NCBI RefSeq assembly: GCF_002844195.1
Contig: NZ_PEND01000005.1
Span: 186,001 to 250,000 of the forward strand
Reading direction: 5' to 3'
Source of the DNA: Halegenticoccus soli
GTDB taxonomy: Archaea; Halobacteriota; Halobacteria; Halobacteriales; Haloferacaceae
Length of the DNA: 64,000 nucleotides
Numbering within the stretch: the first letter of the stretch is position 1; the number at the start of each line of letters is the position of its first letter. Under the pieces are notes generated by a model. It was not told the origin of the DNA. It saw nothing but the letters and a program-made list of their open reading frames with translations, and did no database searches. The translations under genes and the position numbers were made by a program. This document shows positions 7,743 through 59,281 of this stretch, one piece after another.

Positions 7743-8885
7743 ATGAGCTCGACCGACGGGCGGTACGACGTCGTCGTCCTCGGCGTCGGCGGGATGGGTA
7801 GCGCGGCGACCTACCACCTCGCACGCCGCGGACTGGACGTACTCGGGTTGGAACGGTACGACGTCCCCAACGCGATGGGATCCTCGCACGGCGTCACGCG
7901 GATCATCCGGCGGGCCTACTACGAACACCCGTCCTACATCCCGCTCATCGAGCGGGCCTACGACCTCTGGGACGAACTGGAAGCCCGGACAGGGCGGGAT
8001 CTGCTACACAGGACGGGTTCGATCGACGCCGGACCGCCGGACAGCGACGTGTTCTCGGGCTCTCGACGTTCCTGCGAGGAGTACGACATCCCCCACGAGG
8101 TGCTGACGAGCGGGGAGCTGACCGAGCGCTTCCCCGGCTACCGGCTGCCCGACGAGTACGTCGCCCTCTACCAGCCGGACGGCGGCTTCCTCGTCCCGGA
8201 GCAGTGCATCGTCGCCCACGTCGAGGCCGCGCACGCCGAGGGGGCGGAGGTGCGCGCCCGCGAACGGGTCGTCGACTGGGAGGCGACCGCCGACGGGGGC
8301 GTCTGCGTCCGAACCGACAAGGGGGAGTACGGGGCCGACGGCATGGTAATCGCTACGGGCGCGTGGACCGCCGAGTTCGTCGACGAACTGTCGGGGATCG
8401 CGGTCCCGGAGCGGCAGGTGCTCGCCTGGCTCCAGCCGACGGCGCCGGACCGTTTCGCGCCCGAAAGCTTCCCTGTGTGGAACTTTCGCGTCCCCGAGGG
8501 GCGGTTTTACGGCTTCCCCGTGTACGACGTGCCGGGGTTCAAGCTCGGAAAGTACCACCACCGCGAGGAGACGGTCGATCCTGAAAGCTGGAACCGCGAG
8601 CCCGACGCCGAGGACGAGCGCCTGCTGCGACGATTCGCCGAACGGTACTTCCCCGACGGGGCCGGCCCGACGATGCGACTCGCCACCTGCACGTTCACCA
8701 ACACGCCGGACAACGACTTCGTCCTGGACACCCTCCCGGATCACCCGCAGGTCGCCGTCGGCGCCGGCTTCTCCGGCCACGGGTTCAAGTTCGCCAGCGT
8801 CGTCGGCGAAATCCTCGCCGACCTCGCGGTCGTCGGCGAAACCGACCACCCGATAGAGCGATTCCGACTGGAGCGCTTCGGGTGA
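7743..8885 (+). CDS. solA: FAD-dependent amine oxidase, monomeric sarcosine oxidase / N-methyltryptophan oxidase family
   Basis: 380-residue flavoenzyme of the DAO/MSOX family that oxidatively demethylates N-methyl amino acids such as sarcosine, giving formaldehyde and H2O2. The Rossmann motif GVGGMGSAA (about 14-22) and the GSSHGVTRIIRRAYYEHPSY segment of MSOX/SolA are clear. The C-terminal TCTFTNTPDNDFVLD motif places Cys316 where MSOX attaches FAD covalently, and GAGFSGHGFKFAS completes the flavin pocket. Length matches the family. It is not in an obvious operon: threonine ammonia-lyase follows 130 bp later on the same strand. The exact N-methyl substrate is not determined. Confidence 0.88.
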   Translation: MSSTDGRYDVVVLGVGGMGSAATYHLARRGLDVLGLERYDVPNAMGSSHGVTRIIRRAYYEHPSYIPLIERAYDLWDELEARTGRDLLHRTGSIDAGPPDSDVFSGSRRSCEEYDIPHEVLTSGELTERFPGYRLPDEYVALYQPDGGFLVPEQCIVAHVEAAHAEGAEVRARERVVDWEATADGGVCVRTDKGEYGADGMVIATGAWTAEFVDELSGIAVPERQVLAWLQPTAPDRFAPESFPVWNFRVPEGRFYGFPVYDVPGFKLGKYHHREETVDPESWNREPDAEDERLLRRFAERYFPDGAGPTMRLATCTFTNTPDNDFVLDTLPDHPQVAVGAGFSGHGFKFASVVGEILADLAVVGETDHPIERFRLERFG

Positions 8886-9015
8886 CCTCCCTGCGCCGAA
8901 CCGGGAACCGACCGCGTAGCGGTTCGGGCGGGTCGGCAGGAGGTCGAACGGGCTCTCCTCGCTCCAGTTTCGGAGTACCCGACAGACCGAAGGGGATCGG
9001 GCGCGATCCGAGGCC

Positions 9016-10269
9016 ATGACCGGAAGGCGAACCGAGACGGTCACCTTCGACGACATCGAGCGGGCGCGCGATCGGCTCGACGACGACACCGTCGTCAAGC
9101 GCACCCCGGTCGAGCGGAGCACGTCCCTCGAATCGATGACCGGGGCCGCGGGCGTGTACCTCAAGATGGAGCACCTCCAGTGGACGGGCTCGTTCAAGAC
9201 GCGCGGCGCGTACAACCGGATCAAACAGTGCGCCGAGGCGGGCGAGGCGGACCGGGTCGTCGCCGCGAGCGCGGGCAATCACGCCCAGGGCGTCGCGCTC
9301 GCGGCGACGAGGCTGGGGATCGACTCGACGGTCGTCATGCCCAAGACCGCCCCACAGACCAAGATCGACGCGACCCGCGGGTACGGCGCGGACGTCGAAC
9401 TCGTGGGGCGGGACTTCCGCGGCGCGATGGCCCACGCGCGGGAGCTGGCCGACGAGCCGGGCGTCGAGTTCGTCCACGCCTACGACGACCCCGCGATCAT
9501 CGCCGGACAGGGGACCCTCGGCGTCGAGATGTACGAGGACCTGCCGGCGGTCGAAACGGTCGTCATCCCCATCGGCGGCGGCGGCCTGATCGGCGGCATC
9601 GCTACCGCGTTCGCGGAACTGTCGCCGGAAACGCGCATCGTTGGTGTCCAGGCCGAAGGCGCGGCGACGGTGCCGGACAGTCTCGACAAGGGGTTCCCGA
9701 AGACACTGGACGACGTCGACACGATCGCCGACGGGATCGCGACCGGCGGGACATCGGAGCTGACGCTGTCGCTCATCGAGCGACACGTCGACGAGGTCGT
9801 CACGGTCTCCGATCAGGAGATCGCCCGGAGCGTCCTCGTGCTGCTCGAACGCGCCAAACAGGTCGTCGAGGGGGCCGGCGCGGCGTCGGTGGCCGCGATC
9901 CTGGGCGACCTGGACGTGGAGGGCGAGACGGTGATGCCGCTCCTCTGCGGGGGCAACCTCGACATGACGATGCTCCAGACCGTCCTGATTCACGCGCTTA
10001 CCGACCGCAAGCAGATCCTCCGCCTCCGCGTGCGCATCGACGACCGGCCCGGCAAGATGGAGACGCTCTCCGGGATCATCGCGGCGCACGGAGCGAACAT
10101 CCAGACGGTCAGACACGACCGCGCGGTGGAGGAACTCGACGTGGGCGAGGCGTACCTGACGTTCCAGATCGAGACGAGCGGCGCCGAGCAGGCCGAAGCC
10201 ATCATCCGATCGGTCGCCGACGCCGATTTCGACGTCCGACACGTCAACCGCACCGACGGTCGGACCTGA
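9016..10269 (+). CDS. ilvA: Threonine ammonia-lyase
   Basis: 417-residue PLP enzyme deaminating L-threonine to 2-oxobutyrate (isoleucine synthesis or threonine catabolism). The PLP-binding Lys61 lies in GSFKTRGAYNR. The AASAGNHAQGVA and IPIGGGGLIGGIA (phosphate cup, about 185-195) motifs are intact. After residue ~325 there is a C-terminal ACT-like domain (LRLRVRIDDRPGKMETLSGI) of the short, single-ACT type. It looks monocistronic. Confidence 0.93.
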   Translation: MTGRRTETVTFDDIERARDRLDDDTVVKRTPVERSTSLESMTGAAGVYLKMEHLQWTGSFKTRGAYNRIKQCAEAGEADRVVAASAGNHAQGVALAATRLGIDSTVVMPKTAPQTKIDATRGYGADVELVGRDFRGAMAHARELADEPGVEFVHAYDDPAIIAGQGTLGVEMYEDLPAVETVVIPIGGGGLIGGIATAFAELSPETRIVGVQAEGAATVPDSLDKGFPKTLDDVDTIADGIATGGTSELTLSLIERHVDEVVTVSDQEIARSVLVLLERAKQVVEGAGAASVAAILGDLDVEGETVMPLLCGGNLDMTMLQTVLIHALTDRKQILRLRVRIDDRPGKMETLSGIIAAHGANIQTVRHDRAVEELDVGEAYLTFQIETSGAEQAEAIIRSVADADFDVRHVNRTDGRT

Positions 10270-47834: not shown

Positions 47835-49097
47835 TCAGATCACGAGCTCCGTCCCGTCGGCGAGGTACCGCTCGGCGACGTCGGGGTCGATTTCGATGCC
47901 CAGCCCCGGACCCTCGGGCAGGTCGACGTACCCGTCTTCGAGGATCGGGCCGCGCTCGCCCGTTCGCGTCACCAGGTCGTTCCACCACGGTACGTCGCGC
48001 GCGTGGAACTCCATGCAGAGGAAGTTCGGGATGGCCGCCGAGACGTGCGCGCCTGCGACGGTCCCCACGGGGCTGGAGATGTTGTGCGAGGCGATGGGGA
48101 TGCCGTGGAGGTCGCAGATCGTGGCGATCTTGCGGAACTCCCAGAGGCCGCCGCACTTGTTCACGTCGGGCGCGGCGATGTCGAACGCGCCCTCGCGCGC
48201 GACGTCGTTGAAGCGGGCGGGGGTGACGTAGTTCTCGCCGGTCAGCACCGGCGTCGTGAGCTTCTCGGTCACGCGCCGGAGCGCGTCCACCTTCTCCGGC
48301 GGAACGGGGTCTTCGAGCCACGCGAGGTCGTACGGTTCGAGCTTCCGGCCGAGCCTGACCGCCGTCTCGACGGTGAAGTTCCAGTGGAGGTCCATCCCGA
48401 GGTCGACGTCGTAGCCGATCTCGTCGCGGACGGCCTCGACCAGCGACACCTTGTGCTCGACGGCCTCGTTGTCGAGGCGGCGCGCGGCCGTGTCGGCGTC
48501 GCGATGGGTGGGGATGTCGAGGTCGAACTTCAGCGCCTCGAACCCCTCGTCGACGACCTCGCGGGCGGCCCGGGCGTAGGATTCGGGCGTGTAGATCTCC
48601 GTCGGATCGGCGGTCTCGGCGGCGGCGAGCGATTCGCCGCCGTGCGTGTCGCAGTAGATCTTGATCTCGTCGCGGTACTTCCCCCCGAGGAGTTCGTAGA
48701 CGGGGACGCCGAGCACCTTGCCCTTGATATCCCAGAGGGCGGTCTCGATGCCGGTGAAGGCCGCCTGGCCGATGCGCCCGCATCCGGTGTAGCGCTGGTT
48801 GAGCAGTTCCGTGATGCGGTCGACGTCGAGCGGGTTCTCGCCGCGGAGGTCGACCGCCATGCGCTCGGCCATGTCGAGCGCCGCCTCCGCGCGGAACGTC
48901 TCGCCGAGGCCGTAGTGGTCGGTGTCGGTTTCGACCTTGACGATCCCCCACGTGAAGTTCCCCGCGAGAGCCATCGTCTTCACGTCGGTGATCTCGATGT
49001 CGCGCTCGGCCGGTCGGTGCGATTCGTCGACGCTCAGGTCCCGCCACGGGACGCCCCCGCCTTGCGGAATCCGGTAGTCGGGTTGATCGGACGCCAT
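47835..49097 (-). CDS. Mandelate racemase/enolase-superfamily sugar-acid dehydratase
   Basis: 420 residues. The enolase-superfamily barrel residues are visible: FEALKFDLD (Lys), GMDLHWNF (Asp and His ligand/base region), LAWLEDPVPP (Glu ligand), TGENY (Glu) and ASHNISSPVG (His). Haloarchaeal xylonate and gluconate dehydratases belong here. As the first gene of the operon that continues with SlcC, SuyZ, SuyA, SuyB and ComC homologues, it may dehydrate sulfogluconate to 2-keto-3-deoxy-6-sulfogluconate, in place of the IlvD/Edd-type enzyme of bacteria. Xylonate or another aldonate is the alternative. A minus-strand TATA (CTTAAC, near 49125) is 28 bp from the start. Confidence 0.85.
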   Translation of the reverse strand: MASDQPDYRIPQGGGVPWRDLSVDESHRPAERDIEITDVKTMALAGNFTWGIVKVETDTDHYGLGETFRAEAALDMAERMAVDLRGENPLDVDRITELLNQRYTGCGRIGQAAFTGIETALWDIKGKVLGVPVYELLGGKYRDEIKIYCDTHGGESLAAAETADPTEIYTPESYARAAREVVDEGFEALKFDLDIPTHRDADTAARRLDNEAVEHKVSLVEAVRDEIGYDVDLGMDLHWNFTVETAVRLGRKLEPYDLAWLEDPVPPEKVDALRRVTEKLTTPVLTGENYVTPARFNDVAREGAFDIAAPDVNKCGGLWEFRKIATICDLHGIPIASHNISSPVGTVAGAHVSAAIPNFLCMEFHARDVPWWNDLVTRTGERGPILEDGYVDLPEGPGLGIEIDPDVAERYLADGTELVI

Positions 49098-49171
49098 GGC
49101 TCACCTGAGTCACATCGGGAAGTTAAGCGTTACGTCGGCAGAACGTCAGTTCGCCCAGACGCGGCACTCTT

Positions 49172-49187
49172 CGAGCTTCGAAGCTCG
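49172..49187. promoter_or_regulatory. 16-bp perfect palindrome between divergent operons, candidate operator
   Basis: CGAGCTTCGAAGCTCG lies 75 bp upstream of the dehydratase start and 110 bp upstream of the ATPase start, between their TATA boxes (near 49125 minus, 49241-49248 plus). Position and symmetry suit a dimeric regulator such as the locus IclR protein. Confidence 0.55.
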
Positions 49188-49240
49188 CCGTCCGCGCAGG
49201 CGGCGGTCGCGGGTTTCGGCCCGCCCCGTCGGACGGGAGA

Positions 49241-49248
49241 TTTATTAT
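49241..49248 (+). promoter_or_regulatory. TATA box of the ABC ATPase gene
   Basis: TTTATTAT, about 52 bp before ATG 49297, implying a leader of about 25 nt. GGGTGA 8-13 nt before the ATG is a plausible ribosome-binding site. Confidence 0.5.
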
Positions 49249-49296
49249 CCGCGCTCGTAAATCGGTAGCATAGTGCGCGATACTGGGTGAAAATCG

Positions 49297-50451
49297 ATGG
49301 GCGAACTCCAACTCAACGGCTTACGCAAGGTGTTCGGAGACGGCGGGAACGCGATCGTCGCCGTGAACGACCTCGATCTGACTATCGACGACGGGGAGTT
49401 CCTCGTGCTGGTCGGCCCGTCGGGGTGCGGCAAGTCGACCACCCTGCGGTGCATCGCCGGGCTCGAGAGCGTCTCGGACGGCGAGATACTGCTCGACGGG
49501 GACCCGATCGCGCGGAAGCGACCGCGCGACCGCGACATGGCGATGGTGTTTCAGAACTACGCGCTGTACCCCCACATGACCGTCCGCAAGAACCTGGGGT
49601 ACGGGCTCAAGATCATGACCGACCTCTCGAAGTCGGCGATCGACGAGCGCGTCGAGGAGACCGCCGAGATGCTCGAGATATCCGAGCTGCTCGACAAGAA
49701 ACCCAAGGCGCTGTCGGGCGGGCAGCAACAGCGGGTGGCGCTCGGCCGGGCGATCATCCGCGAGCCGGAGGTGTTCCTGATGGACGAGCCGCTGTCGAAT
49801 CTCGACGCGAAGCTGCGGACGACGATGCGGACCGAGATCCAGCGCCTGCAGAGCGACCTCGGCGTGACGACGGTGTACGTGACGCACGACCAGACGGAGG
49901 CGATGACGATGGGGGATCGAATCGCGGTGCTGGACGGCGGCGAACTCCAGCAGGTCGGCACCCCCCTGGAATGCTATCACGCCCCCGCGAACCGGTTCGT
50001 CGCGGGGTTCATCGGCTCGCCGAGCATGAACTTCCTGAACGTCGAACGCCGGGACCGGACGCTACTGCACGAGGCGTTCTCCTACGAGCTCCCCGGTGAC
50101 TTCCTCCCCGAGAGCGAGGCGGCGGGCGACGAGATGGTTCTCGGCGTCCGCCCGGAGCACATCGAGCTGACGGACGGCGACGAGCGAAACGCCGTCCGGG
50201 TGCGGGTGGACGTGGTCGAGCCGATGGGCGAGCACTCGTACGTCTACTTCCGGCTCGGCGGCGAAACCTACACCGCGAGCGTCAGCGGCGACGTGATCCT
50301 CCGCCAGGGCGACGAGGTGTCCGTCAACTTCCCCGTCGACCGGATCCACCTGTTCGACGCGAGGACGGGAGCCGCGGTCAAGAACAGCGCGGTCGCCGAG
50401 CGGACCGTCGGCGCCGACGCGGATCGAAGCAGAACCCTCAGTTCGTCCTGA
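49297..50451 (+). CDS. Sugar ABC transporter ATP-binding protein (UgpC/MsmK type)
   Basis: 384-residue ATPase. Walker A GPSGCGKST (about 39-47), Q-loop FQNYALYPHMTV, signature LSGGQQQRVALGRAI, Walker B VFLMDEPLSNLD and the H-loop TVYVTHDQTEAM are intact. C-terminal TOBE/OB domains (from about residue 240) mark the sugar-type family, where one ATPase may serve several importers. It supplies the only ATPase for the MalFG-type permeases and binding protein 10 kb away. It is divergent from the dehydratase operon and upstream of the IclR gene. Confidence 0.93.
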   Translation: MGELQLNGLRKVFGDGGNAIVAVNDLDLTIDDGEFLVLVGPSGCGKSTTLRCIAGLESVSDGEILLDGDPIARKRPRDRDMAMVFQNYALYPHMTVRKNLGYGLKIMTDLSKSAIDERVEETAEMLEISELLDKKPKALSGGQQQRVALGRAIIREPEVFLMDEPLSNLDAKLRTTMRTEIQRLQSDLGVTTVYVTHDQTEAMTMGDRIAVLDGGELQQVGTPLECYHAPANRFVAGFIGSPSMNFLNVERRDRTLLHEAFSYELPGDFLPESEAAGDEMVLGVRPEHIELTDGDERNAVRVRVDVVEPMGEHSYVYFRLGGETYTASVSGDVILRQGDEVSVNFPVDRIHLFDARTGAAVKNSAVAERTVGADADRSRTLSSS

Positions 50452-50680
50452 GCACCGCCGCGATCGTCCCCTCCCCGACCCCTCTGGCCCGGTCCGCCGG
50501 GCGAACGTCCGATCGGTTCGCCGAGCGGCCGCGTTCCGGGTCGTTCGCAACTCGCGAACGGAAGAGTACGGCGAGCTGAACGCCGTTTCCGAGCGTCCTT
50601 CGCCGTCGCCGGAACCGAAAAAGCGAACGCAGAAGCGCCGCGCGATGAGCGACGCGGGAGCCTCGTTCGCGGGTGGCAAA

Positions 50681-50689
50681 CAATTAAGT
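50681..50689 (+). promoter_or_regulatory. TATA-like element of the IclR gene
   Basis: CAATTAAGT, about 28 bp before ATG 50713, leaderless spacing. Confidence 0.45.
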
Positions 50690-50712
50690 GAGATTCCCGA
50701 AGAGAGGTACGT

Positions 50713-51492
50713 ATGACGCCCAACGGAACGGAGGCCGGGTCCGGACGCACGATCCGAGCGGTCCAGATATCGTGCGACGTCCTGAGAGCGCTCCGTGAGA
50801 TGGACGGCGCTGGGGTGACGGAGCTCGCAGATCGCCTCGGACTGTCGAAGGGGACCGTGCACGGCCACCTCAACACGCTCCACCGGAACGAGTTCGTCGT
50901 CAAGGACGGCGACGACTACCGGGTCAGCCTCCAGTTCGTCGACTTCGGAGAGCACGCGAAGGAGAACGTGAAGGTGTACGACGTGGCGCGAAAGGAGACG
51001 GAGGAGCTGGCCGAAAAGAGCGGGGAATTCGCGCAGTTCATGGTCGAAGAGCACGGCTGGGGCGTGTACCTCCACAAGGTGAACGGGGCGAACGCGGTCA
51101 AGACGGCGTCCTACGTCGGGAACCGCAAGCACCTCCACTGTACCGCGCTCGGAAAGGCGATCCTGTCGGAACTCCCGCGGGAGCGCGTCGACGAGATCGT
51201 CGAGGCGCGCGGGCTGCCGAGGCAGACGGAGAACACGATCACCGACCGGGAGGGGCTGTACGACGAACTCGAGCGGATCCGGGAGCGGGGGATCGCCTAC
51301 GACGACGAGGAGGTGTTGCAGGGGCTCCGGTGCGTCGCGGCCCCGCTCACGGGCTACGACGGGACGCTGTACGGCGCGATCAGCGTCTCGGGACCGATAA
51401 GCAGGATGAAGGGGGAACGGTACCGCGAGGAGGTCCCGGAGATGGTCCAGAGCGCCGCCAACGTCATCGAGATCAACGCCGCGCACCTCTAA
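50713..51492 (+). CDS. IclR-family transcriptional regulator of the sugar/sulfonate locus
   Basis: 259 residues. An N-terminal winged helix (about 15-70: GVTELADRLGLSKGTVHGHLNTL) precedes the IclR effector domain (about 80-255), with VGNRKHLHCTALGKAILSEL, GIAYDDEEVLQGLRCVAAPL and YGAISVSGP motifs. Haloarchaeal relatives such as XacR control pentose-degradation genes. Located at the end of the locus, it is the obvious candidate to read the palindrome at 49172-49187 and the direct repeats at 41873-41934, with a sugar acid or sulfosugar acid as effector. Confidence 0.9.
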   Translation: MTPNGTEAGSGRTIRAVQISCDVLRALREMDGAGVTELADRLGLSKGTVHGHLNTLHRNEFVVKDGDDYRVSLQFVDFGEHAKENVKVYDVARKETEELAEKSGEFAQFMVEEHGWGVYLHKVNGANAVKTASYVGNRKHLHCTALGKAILSELPRERVDEIVEARGLPRQTENTITDREGLYDELERIRERGIAYDDEEVLQGLRCVAAPLTGYDGTLYGAISVSGPISRMKGERYREEVPEMVQSAANVIEINAAHL

Positions 51493-52392: not shown

Positions 52393-52641
52393 TCACTCCG
52401 AAGTCAACCGCACGAGCTCCTGCCCGGCCTCGATGGGTGCCTCGTCCTCGACGAGGATCTCACCGACCACGCCCGCGGCGTCGGCGGTGATCTCGTGGAA
52501 GTTCTTCATGACCCCGACGAGGCAGACGACGTCGCCCGCTTCGACGCGGTCGCCCTTCTCGACGAACGGCGCTTCGTCCGGATCGGAGCGTCGGTAGAAG
52601 ACGCCCGGCATCGGTGCCGTGATTGTCGTTTCTTCCGTCAT
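52393..52641 (-). CDS. Stand-alone biotin carboxyl carrier protein
   Basis: 82-residue biotinyl domain. The biotin-accepting Lys is in LVGVMKNFHEI (MKN form rather than the common MKM), between the two halves of the hammerhead (ITAPMPGVFY and GVVGEILVEDEAPIEAGQ). The start MTEETTITAP is preferred; a GTG 15 codons upstream also exists. Such short MKN-type carriers occur with KipI/KipA/YcsF genes. It would carry carboxy-biotin between the biotin carboxylase (54908-56284) and the KipI-KipA carboxyltransferase-like proteins. Confidence 0.85.
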   Translation of the reverse strand: MTEETTITAPMPGVFYRRSDPDEAPFVEKGDRVEAGDVVCLVGVMKNFHEITADAAGVVGEILVEDEAPIEAGQELVRLTSE

Positions 52642-52701
52642 GTTTCGCCCCGTCGCGGTTCGGTTGAGCGTCGGCCGCTCGTACACCCATACACGGTTCC
52701 A

Positions 52702-52712
52702 CTATTTATATT
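52702..52712 (-). promoter_or_regulatory. TATA box of the biotin carrier gene
   Basis: Minus-strand AATATAAATAG within an AT-rich patch, about 65 bp before the ATG at 52641, so the gene has its own promoter and a short leader. Confidence 0.5.
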
Positions 52713-52768
52713 TTTGTTGTCTATCGTTCTACTCATAGGCGAATATTGGGACTGGATTCTCATCTCTG

Positions 52769-53737
52769 TCACTCCAGCGACGACCGGATCGCCTCCAGCG
52801 CCGCCTCGTTCCGTGTGCGCGCGTCGAGAGCGTCCTCCAGTGAGACGTCTTCGAACGTCACCGTCTGGTGGGTGCGGCGCTGCGCCAGCAGACCGCGATC
52901 GGCGCTGACGACGGTGCCGACGGTCGCGTACCCGCCGCCGGTGACCGCGTCGCGCATGAGCACGATGGGCTGCTGGGGCACCTGAATCGACCCCACGGGG
53001 TACCCGAGATCGACGACGTTCGACGGATCGGTCCCCGCCCCGAAGGGCTGCTCCCGCGGGACGAAGTCGAGGTCCGGTCCGTCTAGCCGGTAGCCGACGC
53101 GGTCCGCCTCCGGCGTGACCGTCCACTCCGCCTTGCACAGTTCGGCTTTGCTCTCCTCCGTGAGGCGGTAATCGCAGAGGCCCAGGACGATCCTGATGGC
53201 GGACTTGTCGGCGTACTCGGGGACGTGCTCATCGTCGACGCGCGAGCCCACCAGGTCGGCGCTGCGCCCGGGCGGATCGCCGATCGACAGCTCGTCGCCC
53301 GCTTGCAGCGGCCGCCCCTCGTGCCCGCCGAGCCCGATGAGGGTGTAGGTCGAGCGGCTCCCCATGAGCGGTTCGACGTCGACGCCGCCGGCGACGGCCA
53401 GGTAGGTCCGCGCGCCGTCGGTCGCGTACTGGAGCGACAGCTCGTCTCCCGCCTCGACCGCGACCGCCTCCCACGTCGGTATCGGCTCGTCGTTCAGCGT
53501 CGGCGTCATGTCCGCGCCGGCGAGCGCGACGACGGCATCCTCGCCGAACCGGAGATCGCACCCCTGGTAGGTCATCTCGAGAGTCGCCGCGTCGGCGTCG
53601 TTGCCGACGAGGTAGTTTGCGGCGGCGTGGGCGTACTGGTCCATCGCCCCGGACGGCGGCATGCCGATGTGGTAGTGCCCGTCGCGGCCGACGTCCTGCA
53701 CCGTCGTCAGGACGCCGGGCTTCTCGACGCTGATCAC
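52769..53737 (-). CDS. pxpC: KipA/PxpC family protein (5-oxoprolinase subunit C; carboxyltransferase-like)
   Basis: 322 residues of the KipA/PxpC family (also named biotin-dependent carboxyltransferase or allophanate-hydrolase subunit 2). VEKPGVLTTVQDVGRDGHYH, PPSGAMDQYAHAAANYLVGN, YLAVAGGVDV and GYPVGSIQVPQQPIVLMRDAVTGGGYATVG (in parts) are signatures. With PxpB it forms the carboxyltransferase-like complex; the same two folds make the carboxyltransferase domain of urea carboxylase. Its start overlaps the pxpB stop by 4 bp, showing translational coupling. Confidence 0.9.
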   Translation of the reverse strand: MISVEKPGVLTTVQDVGRDGHYHIGMPPSGAMDQYAHAAANYLVGNDADAATLEMTYQGCDLRFGEDAVVALAGADMTPTLNDEPIPTWEAVAVEAGDELSLQYATDGARTYLAVAGGVDVEPLMGSRSTYTLIGLGGHEGRPLQAGDELSIGDPPGRSADLVGSRVDDEHVPEYADKSAIRIVLGLCDYRLTEESKAELCKAEWTVTPEADRVGYRLDGPDLDFVPREQPFGAGTDPSNVVDLGYPVGSIQVPQQPIVLMRDAVTGGGYATVGTVVSADRGLLAQRRTHQTVTFEDVSLEDALDARTRNEAALEAIRSSLE

Positions 53738-54639
53738 GCGTACAACACCTCCGTGAGCCGCTCGTTGTACCCGGTCGGATCCTCGAAGAACCGCTCGGGC
53801 GAGAACTCGACCTCCTCGATGCGGTACTCGTACGTCCCCGCCTCGACCTCCTCGCGGATGGCGTCATACTCGTCGCGGTCGATCCGTCGGAACTGCAGAA
53901 CGTCGCCCGGGTTCGGGAACACCATCGAGTCGCGGAAGTCCGGAAGCCGCTGTTCGACGTCGAGCACCTCCAGGGGCGTCCGCCCGTAGAGCTGATAGCC
54001 GCCCGCCCCCTGCACCGGATAGATCGCCGTGAACGCGCCCCCGAAGCCGACCGCGCGGGCGGGGGTGTCTGTCCGCGGCTGGACGTACTTCGGCACCTCT
54101 ATCTGCCGGTCGCGGGGGACCATCTGAAAGCACCACGGGAGCCCCGGCACGAATCCGACCATCGTCACCATGTGGGGCGCGCCCGCGTGAGCCTCGATGA
54201 ACGACTCGACGCCGTCGAATCCGTTGATGCGGGCCGAGTACTCGAGGTCGGTCGAGTCGGGGTCCTGGTGGTTGTCGCGGAACCGCATCAGCGTCTCGCG
54301 GGTCCACTCGTCGTCGTACAGCACCGGAAAGTCGACGACGCGCGTCTCCCACTGGTACTCCGAGAGGTCGGTCGCCGCGGCGATCTCCTTGAGCTCCTCG
54401 ACGAGGGCTCTCGGGCCGATCTCGTCCGGGTCGAAGTGGATCATGTACGAGGCGTTCGCGGGGCAGATCTCGATCAGCCCCGGCGGATCGCGCTCTCGTA
54501 TCTGTTGGGTGACCGCCATCGCCTGGAAGTTGGCGTCGAAGCTCATCGCCTGGTCGAGTTCGACGAACACGTAGTCGTCCGCGCCGAACTCGTACCGCGG
54601 TTTGGGCAGCGACACCCGTTCGATGCGCTGGTCCGTCAT
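53734..54639 (-). CDS. pxpB: KipI/PxpB family protein (5-oxoprolinase subunit B)
   Basis: 301 residues of the KipI/AHS1 family. GLIEICPANASYMIHFDPDE, VDFPVLYDDEW, VGFVPGLPWCFQM and VGFGGAFTAIYPVQGAGGYQ are typical. It is longer than most PxpB (about 220-240 residues) because of N- and C-terminal extensions, the latter ending GYNERLTEVLYA. It works with PxpC, probably on a lactam or amide. Divergent from the biotin carboxylase gene, with which it shares a 270-bp control region. Confidence 0.9.
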   Translation of the reverse strand: MTDQRIERVSLPKPRYEFGADDYVFVELDQAMSFDANFQAMAVTQQIRERDPPGLIEICPANASYMIHFDPDEIGPRALVEELKEIAAATDLSEYQWETRVVDFPVLYDDEWTRETLMRFRDNHQDPDSTDLEYSARINGFDGVESFIEAHAGAPHMVTMVGFVPGLPWCFQMVPRDRQIEVPKYVQPRTDTPARAVGFGGAFTAIYPVQGAGGYQLYGRTPLEVLDVEQRLPDFRDSMVFPNPGDVLQFRRIDRDEYDAIREEVEAGTYEYRIEEVEFSPERFFEDPTGYNERLTEVLYA

Positions 54640-54872
54640 GTGATACGCGAACGATTCTCACCCGGCTTACGTATAGCTGCCGGTGGTGGTCCGACAACAC
54701 ACTCTCGAAGCGGATCACGTAGCGCTCGCCCCGATAATTTGGGACGCCGTCCGAACCGTCCGCGAGGACGGAATCGAGCGGAGCCGAGACGGGGGCGAGG
54801 CGCGTTCGGTAGACGCTGATCGAGAAACGGCCGGAGAGTCGAACCGAGTTCGACATCTCGGACGGCTCCTAA

Positions 54873-54882
54873 CCTATATGCC
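54873..54882 (+). promoter_or_regulatory. TATA box before the biotin carboxylase gene
   Basis: CCTATATGCC, about 30 bp before GTG 54908. It contains an in-frame ATG (54878) that could be mistaken for the start. Confidence 0.45.
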
Positions 54883-54907
54883 ACTCTTTCGCGAACCGGA
54901 GAGCACA

Positions 54908-56284
54908 GTGTTCGACAAAGTACTGGTGGCGAACAGGGGCGAGATCGCCGTTCGCGTCGTGCAGGCCTGCCACGAACTCGGCGTCGAGGCGGTCGCGGTG
55001 CACAGCGACGCGGACGGGGACGCAAAGCACGTCAGACAGGCCGACGAGGCGTACAACGTTGGGTCGCCGGTCGCGGCGCGGAGCTACCTCAACCAGGACC
55101 GGCTCCTCGAAGTCGCGTCCGAAGCGTCCGCGGACGCGATCCACCCCGGATACGGCTTCCTGGCGGAGAACGCCGGCTTCGCTCGTCGGGTCGAAGAGAG
55201 CGACGCGACCTGGATCGGTCCGTCGAGCGACGTGATGGAGGCGCTGGGGGAGAAGACGCGGGCCCGATCCCTCATGCGCGACGCCGGCGTCCCGATCGTC
55301 CCGGGCACGACCGACGCGGTGACCGACCCGGACGCCGTCCGGGCGTTCGCCGACGAACACGGCTACCCGGTCGCGATCAAGGCCGCCGGGGGCGGCGGCG
55401 GCAAGGGGCTCGCCGTCGTCGAATCGCCCGACGCTGTCGACGCGCGGTTCGAGAGCGCGCGGCGCGAGGGGGAGGCGTACTTCGACAACCCCGACGTGTA
55501 CGTCGAAAAGTACCTCGAATCCCCGCGCCACATCGAGGTGCAGGTGCTCGGCGACGCCCGCGGGGAGGTGCGGCACTTCTGGGAGCGCGACTGCAGCGTC
55601 CAGCGCAGACAGCAGAAGCTCGTGGAGGAGTCGCCGAGCCCCGCGCTCTCGCCGGCGGAGCGCGAGCGGCTCTGCGAGGCGGCCCGCCGGGGCGTCGAGG
55701 AGGCCGGGTACGCGAACGCCGGCACCGTGGAGTTCCTCTACCAGGACGGCGACTTTTACTTCCTCGAAGTGAACGCCCGCATCCAGGTCGAGCACCCGGT
55801 GACGGAGGTTCGGACGGGGTTCGACCTCGTGAAGTGGCAGCTCCGTGTCGCGGCCGGCGAGTCGTTCGACTTCGAGCAGGAGGCGGTCGAGCCGCGGGGG
55901 GCGGCCATCGAGTTCCGGATCAACGCCGAAAACCCGTTCGAGGACTTCGCCCCGATGCCGGGCGAGCTAGACGTGTATCGGCCGCCGCGGGGGATCGGGA
56001 TCCGCGTCGACGACGGGGTCGACGAGGGCGACGCCGTCGGACCGTTCTACGATTCGCTCGTCGGGAAGTTCGTCGTGGCCGGACAGGACAGGCGGGAGGC
56101 CATCGAACGGTCGAAGCGGGCGCTCTCGGAGTGCGAGATCGCGGGCATCCCGACGACGATCCCCTTCCACCGACAGCTGCTCGAAGACCGTCGCTTCGTC
56201 GCGGGCGAGCACACGACCCGGTTCGTCGACGACGACTTCACCCTGGACGACGCGGGGGCCGAAGAGACCGGCGCGCGACGGTGA
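54908..56284 (+). CDS. accC: Biotin carboxylase (AccC-like)
   Basis: 458-residue ATP-grasp enzyme that carboxylates biotin with bicarbonate and [19 protein letters not shown] starts the protein, [14 protein letters not shown] is the glycine-rich ATP loop (about 158-171), and [14 protein letters not shown] holds the catalytic Arg/Glu. It ends shortly after the biotin carboxylase C-domain, so it carries no biotinyl domain; the separate carrier at 52393-52641 fits. GTG 54908 is chosen because homologues begin [11 protein letters not shown] and a TATA box lies just upstream; ATG 54878 is the alternative. Confidence 0.92.
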
Positions 56285-56355
56285 CCCGGGGCGGATCGGG
56301 CCGGACTGGGCTGGACCGGACCGAATCGCAAAAGGATCCGCGCCGATTCCTCCGC

Positions 56356-56844
56356 TCAATCGGACGAAAAGCGTTCGAGCAGCGTTTCGAGCCGGTAGGT
56401 CCGCAGCGGGTTCGTCTCGTCCTTGATCGTCGTGATGACGAACTTCGAGCTCGTCCGCTCGACCTCGTCGATGGACTCGTACGCTTCGACGAGCGACTCG
56501 ACGCCCTCCCGGTCGAACAGGTGGGCGACGACGATGAAGTCGGTGTCGCCCATCGTGAAGAACACCTCGCAGACCCCCTCGATCTCGCTGAGCTTCGAGC
56601 CGACGATCTCGTGGTAGCCCTGCTCGTACTCCGCCATCACCTCCGAGATGACCGTGATGCCGAGACCGAACTTCTCGCGGTCGAGTTCGTGTAAGTCGTT
56701 CGTGAGCACGCCGTCCTCCCGCAGCTTGCTGAGGCGGTAGTGCACCGTCGACTTCGGCATGCCCGTCTCCTCCTCGATGCGCTTCGGGCTCGGGTCGCCC
56801 ACCTCGTACATCGCCTTCAGGATCTCGATGTCGCGCTCGTCCAT
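56356..56844 (-). CDS. Lrp/AsnC family regulator
   Basis: 162 residues. The N-terminal helix-turn-helix (MDERDIEILKAMYEVGDPSP, EEETGMPKSTVHYRLSKLRE) is followed by a RAM/ligand-binding alpha-beta domain. It lies between accC and pxpA, with the same orientation as pxpA, and most likely regulates the KipI/KipA/carboxylase genes in response to an amino acid such as glutamate or 5-oxoproline, though this is inference. ATG 56844 is favoured over one 9 codons upstream. Confidence 0.88.
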   Translation of the reverse strand: MDERDIEILKAMYEVGDPSPKRIEEETGMPKSTVHYRLSKLREDGVLTNDLHELDREKFGLGITVISEVMAEYEQGYHEIVGSKLSEIEGVCEVFFTMGDTDFIVVAHLFDREGVESLVEAYESIDEVERTSSKFVITTIKDETNPLRTYRLETLLERFSSD

Positions 56845-56938
56845 GGACCCCTCTTTCGAAGGGGCGACCAAAACAGTTCGTGGTTCCCGGAGCGCGTTCG
56901 AACGACAACCGCGGGAGGACGGCGTACGTCCGATCGAC

Positions 56939-57721
56939 TCACCGTCGGTCGGCGTCGCCGCGGGCGATCTCCGAGAGCGGCGCGAGCCGGATGTCGTGCT
57001 CGTCGACCGCCTCGTGAATCGCCTCCAGCAGTTCGACCGCGTTCGGGCCGTCGCCGTGGACGCAGACGCTCTCGGCCGGAACCTCGATCGTCTCGCCGTC
57101 GACCGTCTCCACCGTCCCCTCCGTCGCGATGCTGACGAACCGCGCTGCGACCTCCTCGGGGTCCTTCGGCCGCATCTGCTTTTCGACGATCAGGCTCCCG
57201 TCCCGTCGGTACCTGATGTCGACGTACCCCTCGAAGACGGCCCTGAGACCGTCGAACTCGCGCGCCACCTCGTAGATGCGCGCGTCGGTGGCGAGGTAGA
57301 CGAGATCCGGATCGACCTCCTGGATCCCCTCCATCACGGCGCGGGCGTGCTCCGGGCTCTCGGACAGCATCGAGTACATCGCGCCGTGCGGTTTGACGTG
57401 CTGGACCGACGCGCCGCTGGCCGCGGCGAAGGCCGACAGCGCGCCGAGCTGGTAGACCACGTAATCTTTCACCTCCTCGGGCGTCGCGTCCATCTTCCGC
57501 CGACCGAAGCCCATCCGGTCCGGCAGCCCCGGGTGGACGCCGACGCCGACGCCGTGTTCGGCCGCCAGGGCGACGGTCTCGCGCATCACGTGCGGGTCGC
57601 CCGCGTGGAAGCCGCCGGCGACGTTCGCGGACGTGATGTAGGGCATCACCTCGGCGTCGCGTCCCATCGTCCAGTTGCCGAAGCTCTCGCCCATGTCGCA
57701 GTTTATGTCCATTGTTACCAT
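56939..57721 (-). CDS. pxpA: LamB/YcsF family protein (5-oxoprolinase subunit A)
   Basis: 260 residues. MVTMDINCDMGESFGNW, SANVAGGFHAGDPHVMRETV, GVHPGLPDRMGFGRRKM and VKPHGAMYSML are all YcsF/PxpA signatures of this metal-dependent TIM-like barrel. With PxpB and PxpC it opens 5-oxoproline (pyroglutamate) to glutamate, or handles a related lactam. The start is set by a leaderless TATA (57745-57754). Divergent from the aminotransferase. Confidence 0.92.
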   Translation of the reverse strand: MVTMDINCDMGESFGNWTMGRDAEVMPYITSANVAGGFHAGDPHVMRETVALAAEHGVGVGVHPGLPDRMGFGRRKMDATPEEVKDYVVYQLGALSAFAAASGASVQHVKPHGAMYSMLSESPEHARAVMEGIQEVDPDLVYLATDARIYEVAREFDGLRAVFEGYVDIRYRRDGSLIVEKQMRPKDPEEVAARFVSIATEGTVETVDGETIEVPAESVCVHGDGPNAVELLEAIHEAVDEHDIRLAPLSEIARGDADRR

Positions 57722-57744
57722 GCGTGTCCGATGGCGCGAACCGG

Positions 57745-57754
57745 GCAAATAGCT
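57745..57754 (-). promoter_or_regulatory. TATA-like element of pxpA
   Basis: Minus-strand AAGCTATTTG, about 28 bp before ATG 57721. Confidence 0.4.
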
Positions 57755-57860
57755 TGTGCTGCCACCGCGACGCCAGTCGAAATACTGGTACGATGTTGAG
57801 ATTATCGGATGGATATCCGGACTCGGTTCCGGTTATCGAGTCTATTCGGGACGCACGACA

Positions 57861-57869
57861 ATCTATATG
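57861..57869 (+). promoter_or_regulatory. TATA box of the aminotransferase gene
   Basis: ATCTATATG, about 28 bp before ATG 57893, leaderless spacing. Confidence 0.5.
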
Positions 57870-57892
57870 TGTCCGACCGTACAGGGAACCGT

Positions 57893-59281
<1,389 letters not shown>

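Follow-up and report, generated by a model that had tools for sequence, protein, structure and literature searches.

The window analysed here, 64,000 nucleotides of the haloarchaeon Halegenticoccus soli (NCBI RefSeq assembly GCF_002844195.1, contig NZ_PEND01000005.1, positions 186,001 to 250,000 of the forward strand), carries at positions 52393-57748 separate genes for a biotin carboxylase (BC), a short biotin carboxyl carrier protein, KipI, KipA and YcsF, here called the module, together with an Lrp regulator and a divergent aminotransferase (Table 1). All of them were located by gene layout and profile searches, and the domain matches and intact catalytic residues confirm the gene list of a sequence-only reading of this DNA, including its MKN-type carrier. 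The carrier comprises 97 amino acids if translated from a GTG start, with an 82-residue product from an ATG near 52641 being likelier; the biotinyl lysine motif is present in 141 of 142 carriers scanned. In BC, all three biotin carboxylase domains are present and the active site is intact, with all 11 residues checked against E. coli AccC identical, as in nearly all of 123 members of the clade of related modules. The reading frames of KipI and KipA overlap by 4 bases. Since BC is divergent from the KipI-KipA-carrier genes, the window holds a cluster and not one operon, and the region between the two arms is likely a shared control region.

Table 1. Position and support of the module genes, their catalytic features and the adjoining genes (window coordinates; UC, urea carboxylase).
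Feature	Position	Strand	Basis
Short biotin carboxyl carrier protein	52393..52686	-	PF00364 70.8 bits; NF005457 106.3 bits (cut-off 87)
Biotinyl lysine K61 of the carrier, motif GVMKNF	codon 52504-52506	-	motif scan
KipA, carboxyltransferase subdomains A + B, assigned to UC type	52769..53737	-	PF02626 304.7 bits
UC-type loop of KipA, residues 231-249 (PFGAGTDPSNVVDLGYPVG)	52991..53047	-	alignment
KipI, carboxyltransferase subdomains C + D, assigned to UC type	53734..54639	-	PF02682 141.8 bits
K184 of KipI (VPKYVQPRT), counterpart of K. lactis urea amidolyase K1605	54088..54090	-	alignment
Intergenic region, divergent, KipI-KipA-carrier vs BC	54640..54910	.	gene layout
Stand-alone BC, 457 aa	about 54911..56284	+	PF00289, PF02786, PF02785; NF006367 over cut-off
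Lrp/AsnC-type regulator	56356..56871	-	PF01037
YcsF/PxpA (LamB/YcsF family), proposed hydrolase of carboxylated lactam	56939..57748	-	PF03746 307.7 bits; NF003814 over cut-off
Class III aminotransferase, divergent	57809..59281	+	PF00202

Transferase type and origin of the biotin genes

KipI and KipA each correspond to one half of the urea carboxylase (UC) transferase. With the UC model, KipI scores 109.5 bits and KipA 230 bits, compared to 85.1 bits with the PxpB model and 215 bits with the PxpC model, whose cut-offs (145.55 and 500, respectively) are both missed, whereas for PxpB and PxpC of E. coli the scores are reversed and the Pxp cut-offs are passed. The model TIGR02712, which describes a single polypeptide of biotin carboxylase, carboxyltransferase and carrier (BC-CT-BCCP; cut-off 1303.85 bits), is missed by each module protein, the genes being separate. 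In a KipA tree, PxpC-type sequences are split from the module clade plus UC at 99/95, and the KipA proteins of the module form a single clade at 100/99, except for Thermomicrobium and one Actinomadura pair, which join UC. In K. lactis urea amidolyase, K1605 is the most likely general base (PMC5770610). Lysine occupies this position in 148 of 148 clade members and in four of four UC sequences, and arginine in all of the only 11 PxpB-type controls. Similarly, residues A234, G235, N240, D243 and Y246 of the KipA loop (GAGTDPSNVVDLGYPVG) are common to UC, with gaps or other residues in 11 of 11 PxpC-type proteins. The AlphaFold model of KipI (pLDDT 94.6) finds its best folds in K. lactis UC over the whole length (TMq 0.79-0.80), compared to partial matches of 0.37-0.58 with PxpB-type structures; the KipA model fits both K. 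lactis UC (TMq 0.91) and E. coli YbgK (0.89) well. By these comparisons, the KipI and KipA proteins of the module are classed as UC-type and not as PxpB/PxpC, a point on which the sequence-only reading is amended.

The lysine or arginine at the general-base position was also considered as a marker of biotin dependence and rejected. Arginine-bearing PxpB-type pairs also adjoin biotin genes (loci L098, L110, L111 and L198), so that the lysine marks the UC-type clade only. Two of these loci are B. subtilis-like pxp operons with an NRAMP transporter, PxpA, a hydro-lyase and an arginine-type KipI/KipA pair: a Klebsiella pneumoniae plasmid (L198, 1484-7654) encodes a biotin carboxylase protein of 581 aa, and a Lactiplantibacillus plantarum plasmid (L110, 4262-10536) encodes a separate carrier and BC.

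The partner BCs do not share one origin. Haloarchaeal partner BCs group with the PccA of the H. soli genome at 100/100, and the nearest relative of the window BC outside the clade is this PccA-type acyl-CoA carboxylase alpha subunit. Those of Bacillota group with UC at 100/96, and the actinobacterial and proteobacterial partners constitute a third group at 81/94. A single origin was rejected by the AU test (p 1.4e-8); judged from these trees, BC has been recruited more than once. That the same transferase has acquired a BC repeatedly is strong evidence of its need for one. In addition, 13 bacterial modules, found in Actinomycetota, Thermomicrobiota and Alphaproteobacteria, have a BioY biotin transporter next to them. 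At the level of comparative sequence analysis, biotin dependence of the module is thus well supported.

Co-inheritance, distribution and gene neighbourhoods

The module genes were surveyed in 392 genomes sampled evenly from the haloarchaeal class. KipI was detected in 47, YcsF in 51 and the short carrier in 48 of these genomes, and all 47 KipI-bearing genomes also contain YcsF and the carrier (Fisher p about 1e-56 for YcsF and 1e-60 for the carrier, values that ignore relatedness). The control genome, that of Haloferax volcanii, shows neither KipI nor YcsF. A chance neighbourhood was rejected on the strength of the co-occurrence. All five genes lie inside the ~17 kb fetched in 39 of the 47 genomes, in many gene orders and orientations, and the retention of content while order is shuffled points to selection on the five-gene set. 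The remaining eight comprise two contig ends, two genomes with YcsF about 9 kb away, one with the carrier 62 kb away, one without BC nearby and two of Natribaculum. The five genes are therefore a conserved unit, and their linkage is far above chance. One locus (L068 of genome G351, 7971-9900) contains an orphan second KipI-KipA pair beside ABC transporter genes, with BC, carrier and YcsF not nearby.

The search was extended to species genomes with the clade KipA alignment as query, as an earlier mixed KipA alignment was too diverse for scanning. At least 573 relatives were detected. Of the best 80 loci, which are the top matches to the clade query and not a random sample, 65 contain all five genes and eight more lack only a BC match in the stretch; these loci belong to Actinomycetota, Bacillota, alpha-, beta- and gammaproteobacteria and haloarchaea. 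Plasmid records add modules of Thermomicrobium roseum (Thermomicrobiota) and Rubrobacter, and on the plasmids of Thioclava, Azospirillum and Rhizobium the genes form an operon of the order YcsF-carrier-BC-KipI-KipA. The module is thus present in at least five phyla and not peculiar to this organism. NCBI names its parts acetyl-CoA carboxylase, allophanate hydrolase subunit 1, biotin-dependent carboxyltransferase family protein and PxpA. Several variants were encountered among the bacterial loci. Bacillota clusters L117-L120, L122, L123, L125 and L127 contain two UC-type KipI/KipA pairs each, in almost every case with one YcsF and a sigma-54 activator between the pairs. Rhizobial clusters of type B have a gene for an additional carrier-like protein (L196, 4818-5294; compare L098, 4833-5297), of which the L196 copy is without the biotinyl lysine motif.

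The genes adjoining the module offer hints about its substrate, with the restriction that all neighbour counts come from related genomes and do not represent independent events. Molybdenum hydroxylases of the xanthine dehydrogenase family are located near the module in 33 loci, and in Bacillota their genes immediately precede it on the same strand, along with XdhC and MobA. Class III aminotransferases are recurrent, not universal (28 loci, 20 haloarchaeal and eight bacterial), as are RbsB/TorT-type ABC transporters, and the Lrp cluster recurs in 15 haloarchaeal loci. A HyuA/HyuB pair stands next to the module in about 19 alphaproteobacteria; of nine HyuA proteins tested, eight exceed the cut-off for caprolactamase CapA (the other one runs off the end of its stretch), and both HyuB proteins tested pass that of CapB. 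Eight Saccharopolyspora-like loci encode a PLP decarboxylase next to YcsF, and three of three tested pass the glutamate decarboxylase cut-off. Jointly, these neighbours point to conversion of a cyclic amide to an amino acid, without singling out a particular one. An N-heterocycle or cyclic imine can be turned into a lactam by a molybdenum hydroxylase, and a pathway from heterocycle to lactam, amino acid and oxo acid is plausible. Candidate substrates are 5-oxoproline, 2-pyrrolidone, valerolactam-like compounds or lactams made by the molybdenum hydroxylase. The same set of molybdenum hydroxylase, RbsB-type ABC transporter, BioY and carboxylase module is found in Thermomicrobium (L095, 304-11746) and Mesorhizobium (L179, 8001-16960), which suggests a transferred catabolic island. 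In the H. soli window, the region upstream of the module (47835-51492) encodes an enolase-superfamily sugar-acid dehydratase-like protein, a sugar-type ABC ATPase and an IclR regulator, and looks like a separate sugar-acid locus.

Proposed reaction and alternative explanations

Considering this evidence, the module is probably a five-subunit, biotin-dependent amide (lactam) carboxylase-hydrolase and a split relative of urea carboxylase. For UC, it is established that a transferase of the KipI/KipA type carboxylates an amide nitrogen. In the proposed cycle, BC would carboxylate biotin on the short carrier using ATP and bicarbonate, and KipI-KipA, with K184 of KipI as the general base, would pass the CO2 on to a cyclic amide at its ring nitrogen. 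The activated N-carboxylactam could then be hydrolysed by YcsF, after which the resulting carbamate would lose CO2 and free the amino acid, often to be taken on by an aminotransferase; the class III enzyme of the window likely serves this purpose. The net reaction would convert lactam, ATP and two H2O into amino acid, ADP and Pi, with bicarbonate acting catalytically. The order of steps, the lactam nitrogen as acceptor and the action of YcsF on a carboxylated intermediate are the parts that we infer. The sequence-only reading had anticipated a biotin-dependent lactamase or oxoprolinase, and its mechanism of biotin carboxylation fits all comparative evidence, while its oxoprolinase label is not supported, the neighbours pointing to lactams in general. 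Some observations weigh against the lactam carboxylase-hydrolase as proposed. In two Natribaculum genomes, KipI, KipA and the carrier are clustered, but YcsF is distant and the fetched stretch has no BC. YcsF shares 30 conserved residues with PxpA, and a search for clade-specific positions hinting at the substrate returned F109 only and hence no substrate information. Because neighbour genes differ between lineages, several substrates are possible across them. Finally, no assay of the clade was found in the open-access literature searched, nor was a description of the five-gene module.

A narrower version of this proposal, a biotin-dependent 5-oxoprolinase with 5-oxoproline as main substrate, is a sub-case whose likelihood overlaps with that of the broader one, and we regard it as possible but doubtful. 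The YcsF partner and the class III aminotransferases are consistent with it, and a glutamate decarboxylase beside YcsF in Saccharopolyspora and relatives would use the glutamate produced. However, the caprolactamase, molybdenum hydroxylase and RbsB-type transporter neighbours suggest other lactams, and a restriction to 47 of 392 haloarchaeal genomes is at odds with a compound that is expected in all cells (PMC13274462). It is very unlikely that the cluster encodes an ordinary PxpABC 5-oxoprolinase, with direct ATP activation of 5-oxoproline by KipI/KipA, merely beside acyl-CoA carboxylase genes. YcsF passes the PxpA subfamily model (NF003814, 315 bits, cut-off 226), almost no residue separates it from PxpA, and NCBI annotation uses that name in related loci; yet KipI and KipA score below the PxpB/PxpC thresholds and branch on the UC side of the tree, and the strict co-occurrence of the carrier (47 of 47), the repeated BC recruitment and the BioY linkage speak against such a system.

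A split carboxylase for urea, guanidine or another acyclic amide, in which YcsF replaces allophanate hydrolase, would account for the UC-type transferase with its catalytic lysine and for amidases near the module in 11 loci. This explanation appears decidedly unlikely, since invariant clade positions of the pocket family are unlike UC (F163 of KipI instead of D; A264/G267 of KipA instead of G/L), which suggests a substrate other than that of UC, and since YcsF is otherwise tied to lactams. Moreover, one neighbouring amidase scored far below the cut-off of the allophanate hydrolase AtzF, and no AtzF was identified near the module (the whole genome was not searched for it), while AtzF lies next door in two of the UC loci examined. 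The least probable option, hardly credible in our view, is that BC and carrier work in an acyl-CoA carboxylase, with a PccB-type transferase encoded elsewhere as their partner in trans. The kinship of the haloarchaeal BC with PccA and the NCBI name of the carrier (acetyl-CoA carboxylase) point in this direction, as does a second PccB-like carboxyltransferase in the genome (G000:C7:30556-32040), which has only two biotin carboxylases, one KipI and one YcsF. Against it, the carrier tracks KipI and YcsF in every one of the 47 genomes and in bacterial operons BC and carrier are immediately flanked by YcsF on one side and KipI-KipA on the other. CoA-type transferases (PF01039) occur only at contigs C1 and C7 of the genome and none in the window, and the module BC and carrier are without a linked one because a separate acyl-CoA carboxylase is encoded elsewhere, consisting of a PccA-type BC-carrier fusion and PccB with an adjoining biotin protein ligase. 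This complete PccA-PccB pair also rules out BC and carrier as the sole acyl-CoA carboxylase of the genome.

Significance and comparison with known systems

If the proposed lactam carboxylase-hydrolase is correct, it would represent a widespread class of biotin enzymes with a lactam nitrogen as acceptor and account for the additional biotin carboxylase and short carrier that hundreds of genomes have under the present name of acetyl-CoA carboxylase. Annotations would be corrected in at least five phyla, and ATP-driven lactam-opening enzymes might find use on nylon-monomer or pyrrolidone waste. The module also makes the question of lactam activation by KipI/KipA-type proteins testable.

Two adjacent genes matching the two halves of the UC transferase were recognized in 2011 by Lombard and Moreira (PMC3199775); the section concerned gives no function for them and no link to YcsF or biotin genes. 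The PxpABC 5-oxoprolinase (E. coli ybgJKL, B. subtilis kipI-kipA-ycsF) has a YcsF/PxpA protein with the same conserved residues and homologous KipI/KipA proteins, but PxpB has arginine and not lysine at the base position, PxpC is without the UC loop, and the enzyme is described without biotin (PMC8453981, PMC13274462). Hydrolysis of caprolactam is unfavourable and ATP-dependent, and the caprolactamase CapAB of P. jessenii and HyuAB-type ATP-dependent lactamases likewise open lactams with ATP and a need for bicarbonate, possibly via a carboxylated lactim (PMC8453981). The CapAB proteins are unrelated to those of the module and function without biotin, although CapAB-type genes adjoin the module in alphaproteobacteria. 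In the mycobacterial AccA3 complex (PDB 9yx5, titled as M. smegmatis long-chain acyl-CoA carboxylase complex with MSMEG_0435-0436 bound), a pair of the KipI/KipA type physically contacts a biotin-dependent acyl-CoA carboxylase complex. This pair is PxpB-type (arginine) and the carboxylase a shared one; the structure shows that contact with a biotin carboxylase complex is possible even for pairs of the PxpB/C type. Together with the BC- and carrier-bearing pxp operons of the Lactiplantibacillus and Klebsiella plasmids, the structure hints that canonical PxpB-PxpC might borrow BC and carrier of acetyl-/acyl-CoA carboxylase where dedicated genes are missing; that biotin N-carboxylation is the general route of prokaryotic KipI/KipA/YcsF lactam opening, canonical PxpABC included, nevertheless seems unlikely. 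Urea carboxylase (K. lactis KlUC/KlUA, bacterial uca) shares with the module the same three functional parts, the transferase fold and family, the catalytic lysine and the KipA loop, but it is one polypeptide, typically accompanied by AtzF, whereas the module consists of five separate proteins including YcsF.

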